In this document: positions 899 through 21,013 of the stretch, piece by piece
How positions within the stretch are numbered: position 1 is the first letter of the stretch
How the letters are laid out: each line of letters opens with the position of its first letter
Source: a virus
DNA: 21,013 nucleotides
Reading direction: 5' to 3' (one strand)
IMG/VR virus record: IMGVR_UViG_3300032296_001925
Location: 1 to 21,013 of that record
The notes under the pieces: model-generated
The model's database searches: none
Told to the model about the DNA's origin: nothing
What the model saw: the letters and a program-made list of their open reading frames with translations, nothing else
Program-made: the position numbers and the translations under genes

Positions 899-2026
899 AT
901 GAGCAACAAGATCATGCAGTTCGCACTTCAGTTCGACGACACCGAAACCTTTATTGCCGAGACCGGGCACAAGCGTACGGTCATCGTGGAAGGCCCGATG
1001 GGCTGGGGCAAGTCCTCGCTGCTGCCAGCACTCGGCAAGCGCCCGGAGTTCGCCAACCACACACGGGTGTACATCGACTGCACGACCAAGACCGACAGCG
1101 GTGACTTCTTCATGATCAAGTACAGCGCGGACGGGGAGACGTTCCGCACCGTGCCGCACGAAGAGTTGGGCCTGCACTTGGATGGGCCGGTGATCCTGAT
1201 GTTCGACGAGATCGGCAAGATGCCGCGCTCGGCGTTCAATTCCGTGCTGCGCGTCCTGTACGAGCGCAAAGGTCCGGGCAACAGCAAGCTGCACGACGAC
1301 TCTATAATATTTTCCACCACTAACCTCGCCGTCGAGGGGCTGGGTGACCTGTTGTTACCCCATGGCCGCAACCGCGTCACAGTGGTGACGATGCGCAACC
1401 CCGACCAGCACCGGTGGCTAGGCTGGTCGATCTCGGCGGGCGTGCACCCGCTGGTGCAGTCATGGGCCAAGGACACGCCGGAGTTGTTCACGTCCTTCAC
1501 CGACTTCGCCAGTGCAGAGGAGTGCGCTACCCGCACGCAGGGCATGATCTACGACCCCCGCGCCGTGAACAAGCCGGTGGCGTTCGTGACTGGCCGCTCG
1601 ATGGAAGGTGCCAGCGACATATTCCACTGCCGCGATGCCGCACTGGCCGCAGGTCGCGCGTTCTCCGACAAGATACTGCACGCTGGGCTGGTAGGTACGG
1701 TTGGTCCGGCGGCTGCGGGTAACCTGATGGCGTACATCAGCATGTTGAACGACTTGCCCAGCAAGGACGAGATCGCCAACGACCCGCTGAACGCACGCAT
1801 CCCGGTTAACGGCACGGCGGTATGCATGCTGGTGTATCGCGTGCTGGCTACCATCGAGCGCGCATGGGCACCGCAGTGGATGACGTACCTGCGCCGGCTG
1901 GACACGGTGGCGCAGGGGCTGTTCGGCAACGGCACCCGGGTGAAAGGTTACCCGCGCCTCAACGCCATCGTGCACTGCAAAGAGTACCAAGAGTGGGCGA
2001 CCATCAACGCGCACCTGTTCAAGTAA
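899..2026 (+). CDS. MoxR-like AAA+ ATPase
   Basis: A 375-aa AAA+ ATPase. Walker A is GPMGWGKS (residues 32-39), Walker B is VILMFDE (98-104), and a sensor-1-like segment IIFSTTNLA covers 136-144. HGRNR (155-159) could supply an arginine finger. The compact N-terminal ATPase core and the association with a VWA protein fit MoxR-type AAA+ proteins, which pair with VWA partners as chaperone-like remodelling machines. The start is supported by AAAGGAG ahead of the ATG. The VWA gene follows after 25 bp with its own Shine-Dalgarno, and the DUF3150-like gene precedes. Expression probably comes from the promoter at 785-813, perhaps controlled at the palindrome 856-874. The substrate in phage infection is not known. 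The ATPase call is firm; the MoxR label is inferred partly from neighbours. Confidence 0.85.
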   Translation: MSNKIMQFALQFDDTETFIAETGHKRTVIVEGPMGWGKSSLLPALGKRPEFANHTRVYIDCTTKTDSGDFFMIKYSADGETFRTVPHEELGLHLDGPVILMFDEIGKMPRSAFNSVLRVLYERKGPGNSKLHDDSIIFSTTNLAVEGLGDLLLPHGRNRVTVVTMRNPDQHRWLGWSISAGVHPLVQSWAKDTPELFTSFTDFASAEECATRTQGMIYDPRAVNKPVAFVTGRSMEGASDIFHCRDAALAAGRAFSDKILHAGLVGTVGPAAAGNLMAYISMLNDLPSKDEIANDPLNARIPVNGTAVCMLVYRVLATIERAWAPQWMTYLRRLDTVAQGLFGNGTRVKGYPRLNAIVHCKEYQEWATINAHLFK

Positions 2027-2051
2027 CCCAACCAGACCGAGGAGCACGAGC

Positions 2052-3278
2052 ATGTTGTTTCAAACGAACCTCACGACCCTGCAACGCATAGACATGTGCT
2101 ACACCCAGATCACGGCGCACGAGCGGTACCGTCCGATTGCCGGGGTGCTGTTGATTGGCACGTACTCTGTGGAAGAGACACTGCCGACTGCAGCCACCAA
2201 TGGCCGCGACGAGTTCTACGGCAAGAAGTTTGTGGACGAGGTGTTGGTGAAAGATTCCTACCTGCGGTTTGTGATCCTGCATGAGGTACGCGGTCACAAG
2301 TTGCTGCGGCATCTGACTCACCTGCAGTGGATGTACGACGAAGACCCCGAAACCGCCAACCGTGCCTGCGACTCTGTGATCAACCTGCTGATAGTAGACG
2401 AGAACGCTGCCGACAAGTTTGCCGAGATGCCGATGAAGGACGGCAAGCCGCTGGGTCTATTCGACGAGCGGTTCCGTGGCATGGACGAGGTGCAGGTGTA
2501 CAACATCCTGCGCAAGGAGAAGGAGCAGCAGTCAGGCCAAGGCGGGCAGGCCCAGCCGCAGCAACAGGACGGCTTCGACTCGCACGACTGGGAAGCAGCC
2601 AAGCAGTTGTCCGAGCCGGAGCAGGCAGCACTGGCGAAGGACTTGGAGCAGGCCATACGGCAGGGACACATGCTCGCGGCGAAGACTGGGTCACTGAGCA
2701 ACGGCATCGATATCAGCAACTTGTTGCAGGTAGAAGTTGACTACCGTTCGGTGCTGAGTGAGTACTTGTCGGTCATGATGAAGGGTGGCGATGACGCAAC
2801 ATGGCGCACACTCAGCCGCAAGTATCTGGCGATCAACGAGCTACGTCCCGCTCGCGTGCATGAGGAAGTGGAAGACTTAGTGATCGCGGTCGATGCGTCT
2901 GGCAGTACGTTCAGTCAGGATCAGTTGACCAAGTTCATGTCCGAGATCGTTGGCATGCTGGAGTGCGTCACCGTGAACCGGGTGCACCTGCTGTACTGGG
3001 ACACAAAGGTAACGCAGCATGAGACGTACGGCAGCGAGCACACGCCGCTCACAGAACTGGCATCAAGCACCAAGCCAACGGGCGGCGGCGGGACGTTAGT
3101 ATCGTGCGTGCCCCGGTACCTGCAGAGCAATCAGATAAAACCTCCAGTGGTCATTGTGCTGACCGATGGTCGCTTAGATGACAATTGGGGGCAGTGGGAT
3201 ACAGATGTTCTGTGGTGCGTGCTGAACAACAAGAAGGCGCGGCCCACAGTGGGCAAGACAATTCATATCAACCTGTAA
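2052..3278 (+). CDS. VWA-domain protein with metallopeptidase-like N-terminus (DUF2201-like)
   Basis: A 408-aa protein. The N-terminal part resembles the metallopeptidase-like domain that precedes VWA domains in DUF2201-type proteins. The expected zinc motif HExxH appears as HEVRGH (77-82), with one extra residue, followed by His87, so zinc binding or catalysis may be altered. Residues 155-185 are a Gln/Gly-rich linker. The C-terminal VWA domain shows the metal-ion-dependent adhesion site: DASGS (281-285), the Thr in TGGGGT (343-348) and TDG (371-373). It probably works with the upstream AAA+ ATPase, as in MoxR-VWA pairs. GAGGAG precedes the start. The VWA call is strong; peptidase activity is doubtful because of the altered motif. 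Confidence 0.8.
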   Translation: MLFQTNLTTLQRIDMCYTQITAHERYRPIAGVLLIGTYSVEETLPTAATNGRDEFYGKKFVDEVLVKDSYLRFVILHEVRGHKLLRHLTHLQWMYDEDPETANRACDSVINLLIVDENAADKFAEMPMKDGKPLGLFDERFRGMDEVQVYNILRKEKEQQSGQGGQAQPQQQDGFDSHDWEAAKQLSEPEQAALAKDLEQAIRQGHMLAAKTGSLSNGIDISNLLQVEVDYRSVLSEYLSVMMKGGDDATWRTLSRKYLAINELRPARVHEEVEDLVIAVDASGSTFSQDQLTKFMSEIVGMLECVTVNRVHLLYWDTKVTQHETYGSEHTPLTELASSTKPTGGGGTLVSCVPRYLQSNQIKPPVVIVLTDGRLDDNWGQWDTDVLWCVLNNKKARPTVGKTIHINL

Positions 3279-8051: not shown

Positions 8052-8282
8052 ATGAACAGAGACGACACACGATTCATCCTTCCTGATTCTTTCGTTCGGG
8101 AGAAACCGGAGTGGACGAAGGACGTGGACAAGCACGTCAAAGCCTTTCTCAAAAAGGGCGGCAAGATATATCAGGCAGAAATGGGCGAGAGCTTTTACGC
8201 CAAGCACTACCAAGCAGGCAACAAGCACGCCTTCGTCATCAACCCGAATAAAGATAGAGCCGCCGTGCTGAAGAAACCCTGA
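8052..8282 (+). CDS. hypothetical small protein, 76 aa, directly upstream of the repeat array
   Basis: A basic protein (VDKHVKAFLKKGGKIYQ) with unknown function; the N-terminal MNRDDTRFILPDSFV suggests a soluble globular fold. Its last codons are shared with the first in-register repeat B of the array (AGAAACCCT at 8272-8280), so coding and array sequence overlap. The ribosome site is weak (AAAGGG about 10 bases upstream). Whether it takes part in the neighbouring guide-array system is unknown. Confidence 0.55.
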   Translation: MNRDDTRFILPDSFVREKPEWTKDVDKHVKAFLKKGGKIYQAEMGESFYAKHYQAGNKHAFVINPNKDRAAVLKKP

Positions 8283-9054
8283 TATCCGAAGCGAGTCAAA
8301 AGCCCAAAGGAAACCAAGATGGCATAACGAGTCAAAGCCGGTAAGAAATCCAACCATGCGGAACGAGTCAGTGAGGAATAGAAACCCAGATAAAAGAAAC
8401 GAGTCATGTAGTTTGAGAAACCCAGCATTACAAAACGAGTCAACCGAACGGAGAAAACCTTAGTTTCGAAACGAGTCAAGACTGAGTAGAAAACCAACCC
8501 GAAAGAACGAGTCATGGACATTTAGAACTCCATAAGTCAAAAACGAGTCAAAATCACTGAGAAACCCGGGATCGTCAAACGAGTCAGTACTGAGTAGAAA
8601 ACCATCAGAAGGAAACGAGTCAATATAGTGAATGAAACCAACTTAACGGAACGAGTCAAAAGAATGTAGTAACCCTACAGATCGAAACGAGTCATTGATT
8701 GAAAGAAACCCAGCCTCCAGTAACGAGTCAATGCCAGTAAGAAATCCAACCACGCGAAACGAGTCAGGAATGGGTAGAAAACCAACCCCAAAGAACGAGT
8801 CAGATTACCTGAGAAACCCAATGATCCCAAACGAGTCATGGAGCCAGAGAAACCCAACGATTCCAAACGAGTCAAGTCTGCTAAGAAACCCACAAGCAGG
8901 GAACGAGTCAAAATTGTCAAGAAACCCATGAAGATTCAACGAGTCATTGGGACTTAGAAACCCAACACTGACGAACGAGTCATTAATACCTAGAAACCCA
9001 AAATGTGAAAACGAGTCAGACTGAAATAGAAACCCATTGCGAGTAAACGAGTCA
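8272..9054. repeat. TIGR-like dual-repeat guide array, 36-bp period, 22 copies
   Basis: Repeat A, AACGAGTCA, begins at 8290, 8326, 8362 and every 36 bp to 9046; 21 of 22 copies are perfect and the first reads AGCGAGTCA. Repeat B, AGAAACCCA with variants, begins 18 bp after each A, with one more copy at 8272-8280 before the first A. Both variable segments between them are 9 nt, so each unit is 9+9+9+9. Spacers look unrelated except for a few similar pairs. There is no palindrome and no long CRISPR repeat. The reading frame AAC-GAG-TCA is open by design in the repeats, but I count 6 stops in the spacer codons, about what chance predicts, so it is not a protein repeat. From memory, TIGR arrays of TIGR-Tas systems make 36-nt guide RNAs with two 9-nt spacers. 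Transcribed strand is not shown; all neighbours are rightward. Confidence 0.9.
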
Positions 9055-9063
9055 ATCAACCTA

Positions 9064-9072
9064 AACGAGAGC
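9064..9072 (+). promoter_or_regulatory. hybrid terminal repeat overlapping the ribosome site of the tas-like gene
   Basis: Where the next repeat B would fall (18 bp after the last A) the sequence is AACGAGAGC: the first six bases match repeat A instead. Its GAGAG (9067-9071) is the only Shine-Dalgarno-like sequence before ATG 9080, with 8 bases between. A protein that binds array repeats in RNA could therefore also bind here and control its own translation; that is inference. Confidence 0.45.
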
Positions 9073-9079
9073 AATTAAA

Positions 9080-9943
9080 ATGAGCGATATTAAAATAATG
9101 GTACGCGGTGCATACGACATCCAGAAGTTGCGCATCATGATGGGCAACCGAATCGTTGCGAACTTCAAAGCGAAGCTAGGCCAGAAGCCCGGCATGAGCG
9201 AAGAAGAACTGGAGGAAGCCGAGAAGACAATCCTTGCTTCACTACGTGCGTCCTACAGGAAGATCACCGATGGTGTCACCACACTGCCGAGGCAGTCGAG
9301 CTTCAAAGGCGACGAAGTCATCAGCAGCTACACCGAGTTGGTGCTGGTAGACCAATACCTCAGTCTGGAGCAGCAGGAAGACAAGCAGTTCAGCCGCCTC
9401 AAGAACGTTCTGAAAGACTTCCCGATCTACAACGAGTTCCTTGAAGGCATCTACGGTGTCGGTCCTGCCATGGCCGGGGTTATCGTGTCTGAGATCAACA
9501 TCCACGCTGCACAGTACCCGTCGAGCCTGTGGAAGTACGCAGGACTGGACGTAGCAGGAGATGGCAAAGGCCGCTCGCGCAAGAAGGAGCATCTGGAAGA
9601 GTCCGAGTACATCAACAAGGACGGCGAGACCGCTACCAAGATGGGCATCACCTTCAATCCGTTCCTGAAGACCAAGCTGGTCGGTGTGCTGGGGTCGTCG
9701 TTCATCAAGCAAAGTCCTACCAAGTGCCAGTACCGCAAGATATACGACGACTACAAGCACCGGCTGGAGAACATGCCCGCGCACGCTGACAAGACGAAAG
9801 GCCACCGACACAACATGGCCGTGCGTTACGCGGTGAAACGTTTCCTCGCTGACTTATATGTAGCATGGCGCACGCTTGAAGGACTGCCTGTAGCGACTGA
9901 GTACAGCGAAGGCAAACTGGGCATCATTCACCGAGCCGCGTGA
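9080..9943 (+). CDS. TasA-like, Nop/IS110 C-terminal-domain protein without nuclease domain
   Basis: A 287-aa protein. Residues 123-157 contain GIYGVGPAMAGVIVSEI and SLWKYAGLDV, the hallmark of the Transposase_20 domain (helix-hairpin-helix-like GIGP, then YAGL) found in the C-terminal half of IS110/IS116 transposases and structurally linked to Nop domains. Residues 158-196 are a charged insert; GHRHNMAVRYAVKRFLADLYVAWR (241-264) matches the terminal helices of that domain. Residues 38-110 are long charged helices, suggesting the coiled coil next to a Nop domain. The N-terminal DEDD/RuvC catalytic domain of IS110 is absent, and there is no HNH, so it should bind but not cut DNA. The gene follows the 36-bp array by 25 bp and ends 11 bp before a tiny membrane gene. 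Alternative: a degenerate IS110 relic, disfavoured by the intact frame and the array. Confidence 0.8.
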   Translation: MSDIKIMVRGAYDIQKLRIMMGNRIVANFKAKLGQKPGMSEEELEEAEKTILASLRASYRKITDGVTTLPRQSSFKGDEVISSYTELVLVDQYLSLEQQEDKQFSRLKNVLKDFPIYNEFLEGIYGVGPAMAGVIVSEINIHAAQYPSSLWKYAGLDVAGDGKGRSRKKEHLEESEYINKDGETATKMGITFNPFLKTKLVGVLGSSFIKQSPTKCQYRKIYDDYKHRLENMPAHADKTKGHRHNMAVRYAVKRFLADLYVAWRTLEGLPVATEYSEGKLGIIHRAA

Positions 9944-10243: not shown

Positions 10244-10379
10244 AACAGAATGGGCCGCCTTCATGGCCCGCCTGCAAGAACTCCCGCCCATGGGAGCTAG
10301 ACCTCCACAGAGCACGCAAGACTTCTGGAGAGAGATGGATGCGCTTGCGGACAAAAAGGAAACAGACCAATGGACATAA
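10236..10379 (+). CDS. hypothetical small protein, 47 aa
   Basis: It starts at ATG 10236 with AAGGAGA upstream and overlaps the previous gene by 8 bases; its end overlaps the DNA polymerase start by 10 bases. The product, MTETEWAAFMARLQELPP then a polar tail with DFWREMDALADKK, looks like two short helices. Its main effect may be translational coupling into the polymerase gene. No recognised family. Confidence 0.5.
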   Translation: MTETEWAAFMARLQELPPMGARPPQSTQDFWREMDALADKKETDQWT

Positions 10380-12253
10380 TTACGCTCGATTTTGAAACCT
10401 TTTACAGTAAAGACTTCGGCTTCAAGAAGCTAACTACAGAGCAGTACGTACGCAGCCCCGACTTTGAAGAGATACTGATAGGCATCAAACGCAACAGCGA
10501 AGAAACCATCTGGATAAGCGGCGAGCACGGAGACCTCAAGCAGTATTTGCACAAGCATTACGACTGGGCAAATTCGGCGTTGCTTGCGCATAACACCTTG
10601 TTTGATGGGGCCGTCCTTGCGTGGCGCTTTGGCATACATCCTAAGATGTACCTCGATACGCTCTGCATGGCGCGAGCCATCCACGGTGTAGAAGCCGGCG
10701 GCTCACTAGCCGCGCTGGCGGAAGCCTACGGTATAGGCACTAAAGGTGATGAGGTAGTGCGCGCCGAGGGTAAGCGCAGGGCTGACTTTTCCGCTGAGGA
10801 ACTCAGCGTGTATGCCAACTACTGTATGAATGACGTGAATCTCACTTATGCTCTTTTTGATATATTCATTAACAAGCACAAGTTCCCACACAAGGAACTG
10901 AAGGTCATCGACCTTACCTTGCGGATGTTCATCGATCCTATGCTGGTGCTGGATGTGGCTAAGTTGTCAGACCACTTGGACGCCCTGAAGGACCGCAAAG
11001 AGAATCTCCTCAATGAGTGCGGCATAAGCAAAGACGACCTCATGTCCAACCCGAAGCTGGCTGAGGTGTTGCGGGGTATGGACGTTGTCCCGCCCACTAA
11101 GATCAGCGCGCGTACAGGCAAGGAGACGTTCGCGTTCGCCAAGACCGACGAAGGTTTCAAGGCACTGCAGGACCATGAGGATACCCGCGTGCAGATGCTG
11201 GTAACGGCGCGGCTTGGGGTAAAGAGCACGCTGGAGGAGACGCGCACCGAGCGGTTCATCGACATAGCGACTCGCGGCAAGACGATGCCAGTTCCCATCA
11301 AATACTACGCAGCACACACGGGGCGTTGGGGTGGTTATGACAAGATAAACCTCCAGAACCTCCCGTCACGCGGCAAAGACGCGAAGGTGCTCAAGCAGTG
11401 CATAGTGGCACCCGAGGGATACACCATTATCCAAGCGGACTCGGCGCAGATTGAAGCGAGGGTGCTGGCGTGGTTGGCGGAGCAGAACGATCTGTTGGCG
11501 GCGTTTACGCGCGGCGAAGATGTGTACAAGCAGATGGCTGCCAAGATTTACGGTATCCCCATATCCGAAGTAACCGATGCCTACCGGTTCATAGGTAAGT
11601 CAACGATACTCGGGGCAGGGTTCGGCATGGGCGCGGTACGGTTCCGTGAGCAGCTAAAAGGTTTTGGTGTGGCTATATCGGTCGAAGAAAGCCAACACAT
11701 TATCCGAGCCTATCGGGACGCGCACCCTGCTATTACGTTGCTATGGCGTAACGCCCAGACTGCCTTGCAGGGACTTTACTGTGGAGAAGAATACACGCTC
11801 GGCAGAGCCGGCGTGGTCCGCATGGTGCCGGAAGAGAAGGCTATCCGCATGCCGTCCGGGTTGTTGATCCGGTATCCCGAGCTAAAGGCCAAAGTGTCTG
11901 AAGACTCCTTGACCCCGGAATTCAGCTACAAAACGCGCAGAGGTTGGGAGCGTATTTATGGGGGCAAAATTATTGAAAACCTCACCCAAGGAATCGCCCG
12001 GTGTGTCATAGCGGACCAGATGTTGGAGATAGCCAAGCGGTATAGGGTATTGCTAACCGTTCACGATTCTGTAGTATGTTGCGTGCGCGACGAGGAAGTC
12101 GATGCAGCTGCCAACTATATTGATGCTTGTATGCGATACGTACCGGACTGGGCTAAACACCTCCCGGTTCGTGGTGACGTTGAGGTCGGGAAGAGCTACG
12201 GAGCGTGTGTTAAATGGAAACCAAAACCCCAAGCTGGTCATTCAGCAGCATAA
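10370..12253 (+). CDS. family A DNA polymerase with 3'-5' exonuclease (PolA-type)
   Basis: A 627-aa replicative polymerase with no 5' nuclease domain, the usual phage layout. Exonuclease: DFETF (D7, E9), HNTLFDGAVL (74-83, with D79) and YCMNDVNLTY (151-160, D155). Polymerase: motif A IIQADSAQIEAR (353-364, catalytic D357), motif B from R406 through K410 to F418-G419, and motif C VHDSVV (564-569, D566). Aligning the O helix R-xxx-K-xxx-x, the residue equal to E. coli Phe762 is Leu414. In viral PolA surveys the Phe/Tyr/Leu state at 762 correlates with replication style, Leu being linked to slower or temperate types. The gene overlaps its neighbours at both ends (10 and 40 bases) and begins the replication module. 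Confidence 0.93.
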   Translation: MDIITLDFETFYSKDFGFKKLTTEQYVRSPDFEEILIGIKRNSEETIWISGEHGDLKQYLHKHYDWANSALLAHNTLFDGAVLAWRFGIHPKMYLDTLCMARAIHGVEAGGSLAALAEAYGIGTKGDEVVRAEGKRRADFSAEELSVYANYCMNDVNLTYALFDIFINKHKFPHKELKVIDLTLRMFIDPMLVLDVAKLSDHLDALKDRKENLLNECGISKDDLMSNPKLAEVLRGMDVVPPTKISARTGKETFAFAKTDEGFKALQDHEDTRVQMLVTARLGVKSTLEETRTERFIDIATRGKTMPVPIKYYAAHTGRWGGYDKINLQNLPSRGKDAKVLKQCIVAPEGYTIIQADSAQIEARVLAWLAEQNDLLAAFTRGEDVYKQMAAKIYGIPISEVTDAYRFIGKSTILGAGFGMGAVRFREQLKGFGVAISVEESQHIIRAYRDAHPAITLLWRNAQTALQGLYCGEEYTLGRAGVVRMVPEEKAIRMPSGLLIRYPELKAKVSEDSLTPEFSYKTRRGWERIYGGKIIENLTQGIARCVIADQMLEIAKRYRVLLTVHDSVVCCVRDEEVDAAANYIDACMRYVPDWAKHLPVRGDVEVGKSYGACVKWKPKPQAGHSAA

Positions 12254-16405: not shown

Positions 16406-16429
16406 GCTGTACCGTACGGGTGTGGTTGT

Positions 16430-16455
16430 GGGGGGATGCACATCCCCCCTTTTTT
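16430..16455 (+). terminator. strong rho-independent terminator after the SSB-like gene
   Basis: GGGGGGAT and ATCCCCCC form a perfect 8-bp stem around GCAC, directly followed by six T and then CTCTC. It ends the transcript from the coiled-coil/HTH/SSB genes 24 bp after the SSB stop. The primase-helicase starts 18 bp later, so it needs read-through, an undetected promoter or antitermination. Confidence 0.9.
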
Positions 16456-16473
16456 CTCTCTAGCGATGCGACT

Positions 16474-19377
16474 ATGGATACTAAAAAATTCCTCAGCAGT
16501 GTGTTGAGTAGCCAAGGTTTCTATTGCGCGGTAGGCATCAAGGACGGCAAGACTATCCAGCGGTTTTACCAAACGATAGACACGTTGGTAGACGCGGTAA
16601 AAAGTTTGGACGATGACGGTTATGACGCGTACTTCGCGTTGGCGACTTACAAAACTAACGCCAGCAGAAAGGCCGACAACGTCGAGTACCTAAAATCGTT
16701 ATACCTTGATTTGGACTGCGGCGAATCAAAACCTTACGCGGATCAGTTTACTGCGATAAAAGCACTACAAGAATTTTGCAGACAGTTTAAGTTTAGCAAG
16801 CCAAGCGCCATCATCAATTCAGGGCGCGGGGTGCATGTGTATTGGATGCTGGACCGGAGCTACTCCCGCGAAGAGTGGTTGCCTATTGCGGAGAAATTCA
16901 AAGCCGCATGTATTACGGGTGGTCTGGAGATAGACAAGGCAGTACCTGCGGACGCGGCGCGTATCTTACGTGTCCCGGGCACCCACAACTACAAGGACAT
17001 TCCCCCGCGCAACGTCGAGGTGTTCTCTGCCTTAGACATTAGCTACGACTTGCGCAGGCTGGGTGACTCTCTACCAGAGACTCTCATACCTGTTGTAAAC
17101 ATCCGCACTTACTCGGAAGAAGACAAGCAGGACATGCAGGCGGTACTTGGTAACTACACCAAGTCTTTCAAGCGGCTCATCGAGAGGACGATAACGGGGA
17201 CTGGGTGCGCGCAGATACAGCGCGCTATAGACCATCCAAACGACCTGTCCTATCCCCAATGGCTGCATGCACTTTCGATTGCCAAGCACTGTGAAGAAGG
17301 CGACAAAGCAGTACACCTCATCTCCAAAGGATACAAAAAGTACAACCCAAACGAGACTGCTAAGGTAGCCGAGTCAATAACCGCGCCGCACTTATGCGCG
17401 ACCTTTGAAAAGGATTTCCCGGCTGCGTGTCAGGGCTGTCCGCACTACAACAAGATCAAGTCCCCCATAAAGCTGTGCATGATGGTGAAAGAAGCACCGC
17501 CGCAGGACGTGTTTGAAGACGAGGAGGACGTTGTTGCAGACAGGCCCGCTGAGACATTTGAGTCCGTAGAGTCCATACCGGACGACACCGGGGATAAGCC
17601 ACAAGCGCGCAACACCGCGCCTGTCAGTAACGCCAAGGTCGCTATACCGTCTTACCCAGCGCCGTACTTTCGTGGCGCAGGCGGTGGCGTCTTTGTACGG
17701 ACAAGAGACAAGGACAACAACCCTGATGAGATAAAGGTGCACGACACAGACCTGTACATCGTCAAGCGGTTGCATGACCCACTGCTCGGACCTTGCTATG
17801 TGTTCAGGCACCATACCCGGCGTGATGGGATACAGGAGTTCACGATCCCCGGTACGAAACTTTCAGGCCGGGAGAGCTTCAAAGTAGAGATGGGACTGAA
17901 CGACGTGTTTCTACTCAAGCCTGATCTTCTGATGGCGTACGTCGAGCGGTGGATACACCATGTGCAAAGCACTATGCCCGTGGTGAAGGTGAAGACCCAG
18001 TTTGGTTGGACCGACGACCAGAAGTCCTTCGTCATAGGAAACAGGGAGGTTTTTGTAGACCGGATAGAGCCGAATCCACCCGGTGCCCGCACGCAGCAAT
18101 TCTTCAGCATATTCCAGCAGTCGGGCACCGTAGAGGAATGGAAGCGCATACCGAAGTTCTTTGACCGACCCAACTTTGAGGAGCACCAGTACATGTTCGC
18201 GCTGTCTTTCGGCGCCCCGCTGATGATCTTCGCACCCAACATACCCGGCAGTATCTTCCACTTGAAGAGCGAGAACTCCGGGCACGGTAAAACCTCCGGG
18301 CAGCTTGGCGGCGCGTCAGTGTGGGGGCACCCCAAGTCCTACCTACTGGCTGGTTCCGGCACAACCAACTCTCTGTGGAACCGTACGGAGTTGTACAAGA
18401 ATCTGGTGGTGTATGTAGATGAGCTATCGAACTACGAAGCCAAAGAGTTGAGCAACTTTGCGTACGCGGTGGTAGAGGGTAGGCAGAAGAACAGGATGTC
18501 TAACGCTGGCCAGAACGCAGAACGAGTGCGAGGTGAACTGTGGGCTACGCTGGTGGGTACTTCAGCCAACCAAGGCTTTCTGGACAAGATAGCGGAGTAT
18601 CGTACTGCCCCGAAGGGTGAGGCCCAGCGCGTGCTGGAAGAACAAGCTCGCCCGCTGCCAACCGATGAACAGGTAGTTGAAGATGGTAAGGAGTTGTATC
18701 GGCTGTTTGACGAGCAGTACGGTGTGGTTGGTGACCTGTACATCCAGTACATCATCCACAACAAAGCCGAGGTGAAGCAGCTAGTAGAGAAGATGTGGCG
18801 TGACATAAACAAGTTGGCAGGTCTCACGGTACAGAATCGGTTTTTCGCATGGCAGGCAGCAGCGGTATTGTCCGGGGCTTTGATCTTCAAGCAGATGGGG
18901 TTGATAACGTGGAACCTCAGTAACTTGCGCAACTGGCTGGTGACAAGACTGAAGTCGGTTAAGGTAGCAATCAAGGACTTGGAGATGGACGTGGCAGATG
19001 TTATCGGGCAGTACTACGCCGACAACGTCCGGGGCATACTCCGAATCAATGGGCAGGACGGTAACTTCTTCGACGAGACCAACAACGCGTTCGTGAACCC
19101 GGACGCGATGCCCATAAACCGGTGGGTGGGGCGGCATGAATTCAACACCCGTAGGCTCTACCTACTACCTAAACCATTCAAGAGCTGGTGCACTAAGCAG
19201 CAGTTGGACTACAGTGCGTTGAAAGACAAACTCCAAGCCCAGTACGGGGCTAAGACCGTCAAGATACGCATGGGCCGGGGGACCAAGATCAACCTGCCGG
19301 TACAGCACGCGATAGAGATAACGTGGGATGACAGTAGCCAGAACGACTTCAGCGCAGTACAAGATATAGCGGGTTGA
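16474..19377 (+). CDS. primase-helicase, AEP-type primase fused to SF3-like/DUF927-like helicase
   Basis: A 967-aa replication protein. The primase domain has YLDLDCG (D79, D81), SGRGVHVYW (116-124, His121), and DKAVPADAARILRVPGT (154-170), the three archaeo-eukaryotic primase motifs. C308, C319, C322 and C335 form a zinc-finger-like group. After an acidic linker (344-375) the C-terminal half is a helicase: Walker A SGHGKTS (602-608) and Walker B LVVYVDE (644-650), with SNAGQNAERVRG as a sensor-like region, resembling DUF927 helicases. I chose ATG 16474; a GTG at 16420 in the same frame lies in the terminator hairpin and would prepend HPPFFLSSDATM, which is not credible. No strong Shine-Dalgarno is seen. 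It is the last rightward gene. Confidence 0.85.
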   Translation: MDTKKFLSSVLSSQGFYCAVGIKDGKTIQRFYQTIDTLVDAVKSLDDDGYDAYFALATYKTNASRKADNVEYLKSLYLDLDCGESKPYADQFTAIKALQEFCRQFKFSKPSAIINSGRGVHVYWMLDRSYSREEWLPIAEKFKAACITGGLEIDKAVPADAARILRVPGTHNYKDIPPRNVEVFSALDISYDLRRLGDSLPETLIPVVNIRTYSEEDKQDMQAVLGNYTKSFKRLIERTITGTGCAQIQRAIDHPNDLSYPQWLHALSIAKHCEEGDKAVHLISKGYKKYNPNETAKVAESITAPHLCATFEKDFPAACQGCPHYNKIKSPIKLCMMVKEAPPQDVFEDEEDVVADRPAETFESVESIPDDTGDKPQARNTAPVSNAKVAIPSYPAPYFRGAGGGVFVRTRDKDNNPDEIKVHDTDLYIVKRLHDPLLGPCYVFRHHTRRDGIQEFTIPGTKLSGRESFKVEMGLNDVFLLKPDLLMAYVERWIHHVQSTMPVVKVKTQFGWTDDQKSFVIGNREVFVDRIEPNPPGARTQQFFSIFQQSGTVEEWKRIPKFFDRPNFEEHQYMFALSFGAPLMIFAPNIPGSIFHLKSENSGHGKTSGQLGGASVWGHPKSYLLAGSGTTNSLWNRTELYKNLVVYVDELSNYEAKELSNFAYAVVEGRQKNRMSNAGQNAERVRGELWATLVGTSANQGFLDKIAEYRTAPKGEAQRVLEEQARPLPTDEQVVEDGKELYRLFDEQYGVVGDLYIQYIIHNKAEVKQLVEKMWRDINKLAGLTVQNRFFAWQAAAVLSGALIFKQMGLITWNLSNLRNWLVTRLKSVKVAIKDLEMDVADVIGQYYADNVRGILRINGQDGNFFDETNNAFVNPDAMPINRWVGRHEFNTRRLYLLPKPFKSWCTKQQLDYSALKDKLQAQYGAKTVKIRMGRGTKINLPVQHAIEITWDDSSQNDFSAVQDIAG

Positions 19378-19436: not shown

Positions 19437-19462
19437 CCCCCCGACCATCGGGGGGTTTTTTT
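19437..19462 (+). terminator. strong rho-independent terminator closing the rightward replication block
   Basis: CCCCCCGA and TCGGGGGG form an 8-bp stem around CCA, followed by seven T. It lies 60 bp after the primase stop. The T-tract overlaps the stop codon of the leftward gene, so it is tuned to rightward transcripts; on the other strand no T-run follows the hairpin. Confidence 0.9.
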
Positions 19463-21013
19463 ATTCAAAGAACTCGCCTTCGTCTAGGTCTTCCAACTGT
19501 CTACGCATCACTGTCGCACGCCGCTGCGGACTTATCGTGATGCCGTTAAACATCCTTGCTACTTCGTCCGTGACTCGGTGCTGACGCACCGACCGCTCTT
19601 TCGTGTCGGCAGTGATGCGCACTTCAGGATGGCGTGTGTTGAACTCGTCGATGTCTTCTTCAATAGCCATGAATTCATCGATATCGTTCTCGCGCATTGC
19701 CTTGTACCGTTTACGCAGCAGCTTGGTACGGTTCTCGGTAATCACACGGTCCACGCGCTTGTCTCGGGCGTTGATCTCTAGCTGCCTTGTGTAGCCAGCC
19801 GGGGCGAAGCCCAAGGTTTGCCCGAGGATAGTAAGGGGGCCGAAGTCTTCGGTAATCGGGTCGCCACGCAGGGTAGTAGCACCTTCTGTCGCGTACCGAG
19901 CAGCTTTCATGGCGTTGGCGGCAACGCTGGGCAGCATCTTCTCCATACCGCGCGCTATCTCCCCTTCTTGCAACAAAGGCAGCCCCTGATCCAGCATGCG
20001 TTGGGCTATCCCTACGATTGGACCGCCGGCCATTTCTATCCCCTGCATAACCAGACTTTCCTGCTCTTGGTTGGGGAGCGAACGGAAAATGAGATTCGAC
20101 ATGCCGATACGCGGCGCGATGTCCAGACCGAAGGAATTTACCAACCCGGAGTACATACCCTCACCGAAATACGACGCGAGGATACTGTCAGCGTCCTCAT
20201 CTTCATCGTCCAGTAGGAACATGTTAGCCAGCTCGGTTATCAGGCCCATCATAGGCACGCCCTGTATACCGGAAAGAATACCGGACATGGCGAACAGCCC
20301 AAGCAGTTGTTTCTTGGCGTACTTTCTTTCTTCTGGTGTAGCGCCCTTGAGCGCTTGCTTGGCCATCTTTAGCTGCAGATAGACCATAGAAATACCGAAA
20401 CGCTTGTACATCAGCAGCACACTACCCAAGCTGTTCTGAGCTATCTTGGGCGCAGTCTCCAACATAGAGCCGCTGTTCGTGTGCTCGGTCTCCAGCACAG
20501 CTTCGTGCGCTGCAGCTACGTAGTCTTCATCGGTAAGGGGCTTCCCGCTCTTGGCCTTCTCGTCGAGTAAAAGATCGTATGTTGCCTTCATCGTAACTTG
20601 ACGGGTGAAGCGTTCGCCTTGATGAAACGCATAGCCCATAACCGAGTTGGCTTTGTCAGTTATTGAGTTGCCTGCGGTGTTCATCTCCAACAAGTCAGAG
20701 ATAGTAGTCGCGTTCGCCATACCTTGCTGGTTCATTACATCCACCAGTATTTTGTTACGGCGCAGTTCTTCGGCACCCAACTTCTTGAATGACTCAGGCA
20801 CCGTGTCAGGTTTGGAGAAATCGATGTTGGTGAACGAGGGACCGTCGAATGCTGTACCGCCTTCAACTCCTTCGAACGTGTCCAACGTACGGCGCGTACC
20901 AGTCGCCATGTACAGCTTGCGCGCCCGGTTCATGGCCGACATGGTTTTCCCATAGCCGTGCTTGCCGGCCAAGTAGGGGTACACTGCCATCGGAAGCGTG
21001 AACAGGTTGACCA
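19461..21013 (-). CDS. PLxRFG-type large virion protein, C-terminal part, 5'-truncated
   Basis: The leftward frame is open from the right edge (VNLFTLP precedes the ATG at 20990), so this is the C-terminal 516 residues or so of a larger protein. MYKRFGISMVYLQLKMAKQAL, KKQLLGLFAMSGILSGIQGVPMMGLI, an acidic DDEDEDAD run and SYFGEGMYSGLVNSFGLDI match the conserved C-terminal region of phage PLxRFG-domain proteins, very large proteins thought to be internal virion or injection components. The IQGVPMMG region is hydrophobic and may enter membranes. The last 90 residues are charged and helical. It converges on the primase gene across the shared terminator, marking the start of the structural module. 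Family assignment is from memory. Confidence 0.7.
   Translation of the reverse strand, partial: VNLFTLPMAVYPYLAGKHGYGKTMSAMNRARKLYMATGTRRTLDTFEGVEGGTAFDGPSFTNIDFSKPDTVPESFKKLGAEELRRNKILVDVMNQQGMANATTISDLLEMNTAGNSITDKANSVMGYAFHQGERFTRQVTMKATYDLLLDEKAKSGKPLTDEDYVAAAHEAVLETEHTNSGSMLETAPKIAQNSLGSVLLMYKRFGISMVYLQLKMAKQALKGATPEERKYAKKQLLGLFAMSGILSGIQGVPMMGLITELANMFLLDDEDEDADSILASYFGEGMYSGLVNSFGLDIAPRIGMSNLIFRSLPNQEQESLVMQGIEMAGGPIVGIAQRMLDQGLPLLQEGEIARGMEKMLPSVAANAMKAARYATEGATTLRGDPITEDFGPLTILGQTLGFAPAGYTRQLEINARDKRVDRVITENRTKLLRKRYKAMRENDIDEFMAIEEDIDEFNTRHPEVRITADTKERSVRQHRVTDEVARMFNGITISPQRRATVMRRQLEDLDEGEFFE

Follow-up and report, generated by a model that had tools for sequence, protein, structure and literature searches.

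TIGR arrays are described by Faure et al. (2025; PMC12045711) as two alternating repeats of 8-12 bases with 9-base spacers, whose transcripts are processed from mid-edge to mid-edge into tigRNAs of 36 bases. According to that article, the two spacers of a guide, A and B, recognize opposite DNA strands, TasR tolerates gaps of 0-2 bases, and the guide boxes are UG and CCA; it names as open questions of the family the natural targets, where spacers originate and what TasA, which has no nuclease, does. Besides this article, only papers mentioning or reviewing that study were found in the paper library searched. The locus described here is contained in the IMG/VR virus record IMGVR_UViG_3300032296_001925, whose whole length of 21,013 bases was analysed and is called the window. 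As judged from its sequence and a structural model, it is a phage TIGR-TasA system, an ordinary but well-preserved member of the known family, with a 21-unit array and a gene, tasA, encoding a Nop-domain protein without nuclease.

Like TIGR-TasA of the FpTasA type, the locus combines a Nop-domain protein lacking a nuclease with an adjacent dual-repeat array, and it has the same 36-base units with two 9-base spacers and the box C/D-like anchors. It differs in that its array is upstream of tasA, whereas the tested FpTIGR array is downstream of the gene, and in its 21 units, where 5-15 are usual. The published box D is U-G and that of the window is A-G or A-A, altered jointly in edge and loop; in addition, the window edge closes with an A-U pair and the loop with a G-C pair. 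TasR (PDB 9mty) and TasH (PDB 21kl and 9w04) share the Nop-domain core, a conserved GHxHN-like motif and the spacer layout, but the window protein shows neither RuvC nor HNH and has about 22% identity to them in the fold alignment. The IS110/IS621 bridge-RNA recombinases have a related C-terminal RNA-binding domain and differ by their DEDD catalytic domain, absent here, and by the use of one bridge RNA instead of a guide array. Nop5 of the box C/D small nucleolar ribonucleoprotein shows the Nop fold and has a pair of guide segments flanked by C- and D-like boxes, but its fold match is weak, and no K-turn, L7 partner or methylase is seen in the window system. CRISPR-Cas arrays contain one repeat of at least 25 bases per unit, in contrast to the two of 9 bases found here, and no Cas family was found among the window genes scanned.

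Organization of the array

Each unit shows an edge repeat, spacer A, a loop repeat and spacer B, all of 9 bases. The edge repeats comprise 21 copies of AACGAGTCA, which run from 8326 to 9054, and one variant, AGCGAGTCA, at 8290, with a spacing of exactly 36 bases throughout and an edge core that does not vary in 20 of 20 units (Table 1). The loop repeat, located midway between edges, is AGAAACCCA in 10 of the 21 units and a variant, such as AGAAAACCA, in the others, and both 9-base segments of the unit are freely variable. An earlier note on this DNA had reported the 36-base spacing, the two repeats, the two variable segments and a distance of 25 bases between the last edge and the tasA start at 9080, and all of these are exact; arrays of this kind also accompany the gene in relatives, so that chance is excluded. 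The note also placed the array start at 8272 and counted 43 spacers, because a loop-like copy, AGAAACCCT, is indeed present at 8272-8280. This copy is probably the upstream edge of the array, and the count from edge to edge gives 21 complete units and 42 spacers. In TIGR-Tas systems the end of an array is marked by truncated edge repeats and a terminator. Downstream of the window array, an edge remnant, AACGAG (9064-9069), is located nine bases after the last edge, with a spacing of 18 bases, and the GAGAG within AACGAGAG may be the ribosome-binding site of tasA. No match at the locus was obtained with Rfam, tRNA or PADLOC searches. The 76-amino acid protein encoded at 8052-8282, which ends in the array start, shows a weak match to the SutA RNA-polymerase-binding domain (E 7.5e-4, below cut-off), and among the loci compared only L002 has one.

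Table 1. Position of the array, its elements and tasA in the window.
Feature	Position	Strand	Description
TIGR array	8290..9054	+	22 edge repeats, 21 complete 36-base units
First edge repeat, variant AGCGAGTCA	8290..8298	+	
Last full edge repeat, AACGAGTCA	9046..9054	+	
Loop-like element AGAAACCCT	8272..8280	+	18 bases before first edge repeat; overlaps the 3' end and stop of the 76-amino acid open reading frame 8052-8282
Unit AACGAGTCA-AAGCCGGTA-AGAAATCCA-ACCATGCGG	8326..8361	+	Sibling of unit 8722-8757 (ATGCCAGTA/ACCACGCGA); pair used in target scan
Unit AGACTGAGT/ACCCGAAAG	8470..8505	+	Sibling of unit 8758-8793 (GGAATGGGT/ACCCCAAAG)
AACGAGAG	9064..9071	+	Starts with the first six bases of the edge repeat; 18 bases past the last edge
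tasA	9080..9943	+	287-amino acid Nop-domain TIGR-associated protein without nuclease

The TasA protein

The tasA product matches the NCBIfam model TIGR_Tas_endo (NF052498) with 119 bits (cut-off 100) and the IS110 model with 17.7 bits (cut-off 140). Pfam shows a sub-threshold match to the IS110 C-terminal domain Transposase_20 (E=0.012, residues 119-168); it detects no domain of the RuvC, DEDD or HNH type. A profile of 24 sequences matches exactly two solved proteins, TasR 9mty (3.5e-20) and TasH 21kl (1.8e-14). In the AlphaFold2 model (mean predicted local distance difference test score of 81) the N-terminus consists of long helices and shows no nuclease fold, and its closest structural neighbours are TasH 9w04 (E 6e-9) and TasR 9mty (E 1e-6), followed by IS621; Nop5 3pla is far weaker (E 0.89). 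Since TasH and TasR are the top matches and the helical N-terminus has no nuclease fold, the protein is assigned to TasA, in agreement with the earlier note, which had described an IS110-like domain without nuclease and proposed a TIGR-TasA system; the anatomy of the array also corresponds to the published one. Between the window and L002, tasA shows 39 synonymous and two nonsynonymous codon changes, so that the gene is under purifying selection. In two related loci (L033:8001-9053 and L034:8001-9047) the Tas protein has about 60 additional residues downstream of a conserved GLDV motif. They are absent from the window protein and may represent an added domain or an element that was inserted.

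Covariation of the half-edges and array turnover in relatives

The window and its relatives, obtained in three IMG/VR protein-family scans, a DNA-polymerase scan and one genome scan, contain 994 distinct units. The first base of edge and loop is A/A in 870, T/T in 17 and another combination in five of 892 units. The distant relatives L035-L038 show TG and CCA in both repeats, and the window clade shows A-G or A-A. Edge positions 2 and 7 are A-T, G-T or G-C, and A-C is rare. Pairing was scored between positions 7 and 6 of the preceding edge and positions 2 and 3 of the following edge, and in the control the following edges were permuted inside each array. The half-edges flanking one unit show 8 mispairs, versus 24.5 (standard deviation 2.3) in the within-array shuffles, none of 2000 of which was as low. 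Where position 6 of the preceding edge is A, position 3 of the following edge is T in seven of seven units, from six loci. This result is solid, and it follows that each unit, from mid-edge to mid-edge, is conserved as one RNA with paired ends; natural selection appears to keep the ends of each 36-base guide paired. The two end pairs deduced in this way match two pairs seen in the TasR structure, and the sequence comparison supports the view that the published processing register holds in the family of the window.

Arrays are present beside tas in most relatives checked and change far faster than Tas. Between the window and L002, TasA is 99% identical and the DNA around tas about 90%, and the arrays, of 21 and 8 units respectively, are only partly common. 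In other arrays spacers and spacer halves are reshuffled, as in L026, where TATCGTTCG is found with two different B spacers. In this phage clade, with its many sequenced relatives, array turnover and guide structure can thus be read from sequence. Two relatives contain a second TIGR array: one of 36 units in L125:13580-14911 (53.6-54.9 kb of G004) and one of 13 units in L126:8185-8653 (G005), each about 15-18 kb from the sole tas detected in its contig, a location that suggests that they act in trans.

Codon phase of sibling units

Some units are siblings, alike beyond chance yet different in both spacers, and the differences between them show a three-base periodicity. In a first set of 78 tree edges the phase from spacer A to spacer B fits opposite strands with a gap of 2 bases (71 versus 56.4, P=0.003). 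With the enlarged set, the gap-2 phase is found in same-array sibling pairs (53 versus 39.8, P=0.001) and in all 97 sibling pairs (P=0.03); the phase test alone does not distinguish gap 2 from gap 5, and the same-strand phase also gives P=0.02-0.04. In the sibling pair of L196 the peptide K-S-N-x-G-I-A is kept despite seven base differences, including a serine encoded by TCA and AGT, and in that of L209 the five differences are each synonymous or located in the codon left undefined by the gap. The window units at 8470 and 8758 show four differences, three synonymous and one Gln/His, which all share a codon phase when a gap of 2 is assumed. These data are suggestive of targets in coding sequence whose half-sites are 2 bases apart. 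That the arrays hold several guides against variants of one coding site in other mobile elements, with siblings differing synonymously at gap 2, is a tentative proposal to which we give somewhat less than even weight. If it were true, TasA would be a multivalent, escape-tolerant gene silencer with spacers derived from protein-coding targets. The coding-target idea, suggestive as it is, is the most interesting lead of the analysis: the comparison of siblings allows the target frame and the half-site gap to be deduced without knowledge of the host, and, once coding targets were confirmed, the origin of the spacers would be directly testable.

Target searches

Targets were searched in the order spacer A, gap and reverse complement of spacer B, derived from the 8-base 3' overhangs and cut positions given in the published account (PMC12045711). 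In related phages and the own contig, five matches were found at gap 0 with one mismatch, versus 1.0 expected, with sites in unrelated places. The pattern derived from siblings 8326 and 8722 gave 42 IMG/VR matches: 34 with gap 2, seven with gap 0 and one with gap 1. Of these, 28 fall on a single codon site (K-P-V-G-R-M), located in a gene for a prohead-protease/capsid fusion (PF04586, PF05065), mostly with one or two mismatches to the nearer unit; since the 28 contigs are homologous, they represent a single event. The nearest named relatives of this gene are mostly in actinobacteriophages, whereas the window polymerase resembles those of Rhizobium and Pseudomonas phages. Because the contigs are not independent, the remaining window units give no matches in these phages and the gene and the window polymerase resemble those of different phages, the site was downgraded, and the prohead-protease/capsid gene is only a candidate target of units 8326 and 8722. 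Clusters of eight and nine contigs that look like chance were found in other scans. Units 8470 and 8758 gave 17 IMG/VR matches, the majority with gap 0 and located in unrelated genes; when the scan was relaxed, eight matches at 3-4 mismatches formed an in-frame cluster, which is not convincing. A P63C protein, with the peptide PKATHS in L125, was considered as their target, and the scan gave it no support. The predicted KSNFGIA site of a relative was taken for a DNA polymerase motif, a guess that proved wrong: the scan found unrelated clusters only, the largest of nine contigs, so that chance clusters of this size do occur.

Proposed mechanism and alternative explanations

In the proposed mechanism the array would be transcribed rightward, probably together with tasA, and cut at mid-edge into 21 tigRNAs of 36 bases. 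Two base pairs, between edge positions 6-3 and 7-2 of the flanking half-edges, would close the ends of each tigRNA, and a G-C pair would close its loop repeat. A TasA dimer would bind the box C/D-like anchors and direct the two spacers, A and B, to opposite DNA strands. Lacking a nuclease, TasA would most likely keep the target DNA open and bend it, and in this way obstruct transcription or replication; its targets are most likely coding sequences of rival mobile elements. The earlier note had proposed that the protein silences rivals, host genes or genes of the phage itself, and silencing of one of these kinds may be its role. A phage TIGR-TasA system with processed guides, whose dimer binds both strands and blocks coding sequences of competing mobile elements, is in our judgement the probable explanation of the locus. 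The array, the family and fold of the protein, its lack of a nuclease and the covariation within units are shown here, and the steps of transcription, processing, DNA binding and blocking are deduced. Several results weigh against the explanation. Neither self-targets nor targets in related phages (gaps 0-5, up to two mismatches) show a convincing excess over re-paired or permuted controls, and the capsid candidate is shared by no further unit of the window. The codon signal is modest, and in the 22 sibling pairs with a newly extracted unit the gap-2 signal is absent and gap 0 is favoured (P=0.012). No sigma-70-like promoter was found around the array and no terminator on its coding (plus) strand, in scans that have little power.

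The same TIGR-TasA machine could instead act on the DNA of the phage itself or of its host, as a programmable repressor, an architectural factor or an integration aid and not as a weapon. Such roles are named as possible in the published account (PMC12045711), and the locus is in a replication region: tas is located within 3 kb of a polA relative in 54 of the 70 related loci holding both, and within 3 kb of an Hjc-like nuclease in 39 of 42. Against use on own DNA, no match to the own contig exceeds the permuted controls, and the quick shift of spacer content between close relatives would be odd for fixed own sites; this alternative is considered unlikely. A relic of an IS110-type transposase, accompanied by an unrelated satellite or a bridge-RNA remnant array, would account for the weak Transposase_20 and IS110 matches and for IS621 as the next fold neighbour. 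It is very improbable, as the IS110 score is far under the cut-off, the DEDD domain is absent, the Tas matches are much better, gene and array are found together throughout the family and purifying selection acts on the gene. Least credible of all is a protein with a 12-residue repeat, for which it can be said that 36 is divisible by three and that short open reading frames partly cross the array (78 amino acids on the plus strand; 104 and 89 on the minus strand). None of the listed frames spans the array, the 35- and 37-base units of some relatives would shift the frame, no open frame is conserved through the arrays of relatives, and what is conserved is the RNA pairing of adjacent half-edges.

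Neighbouring genes in the window

The window also contains genes outside this locus. The DUF927/primase-type protein (16420-19377) and the family A polymerase (10370-12253) have their closest named relatives in Rhizobium and Pseudomonas phages of about 60 kb. The region 899-3278 shows a gene encoding an AAA+ ATPase adjoining one encoding a VWA/metallopeptidase-like protein (DUF2201), a pair of the MoxR/VWA type. On the minus strand, 19461-20990 encodes the C-terminal part of a large polyvalent protein of the DarB-like antirestriction family, which is cut by the contig end.
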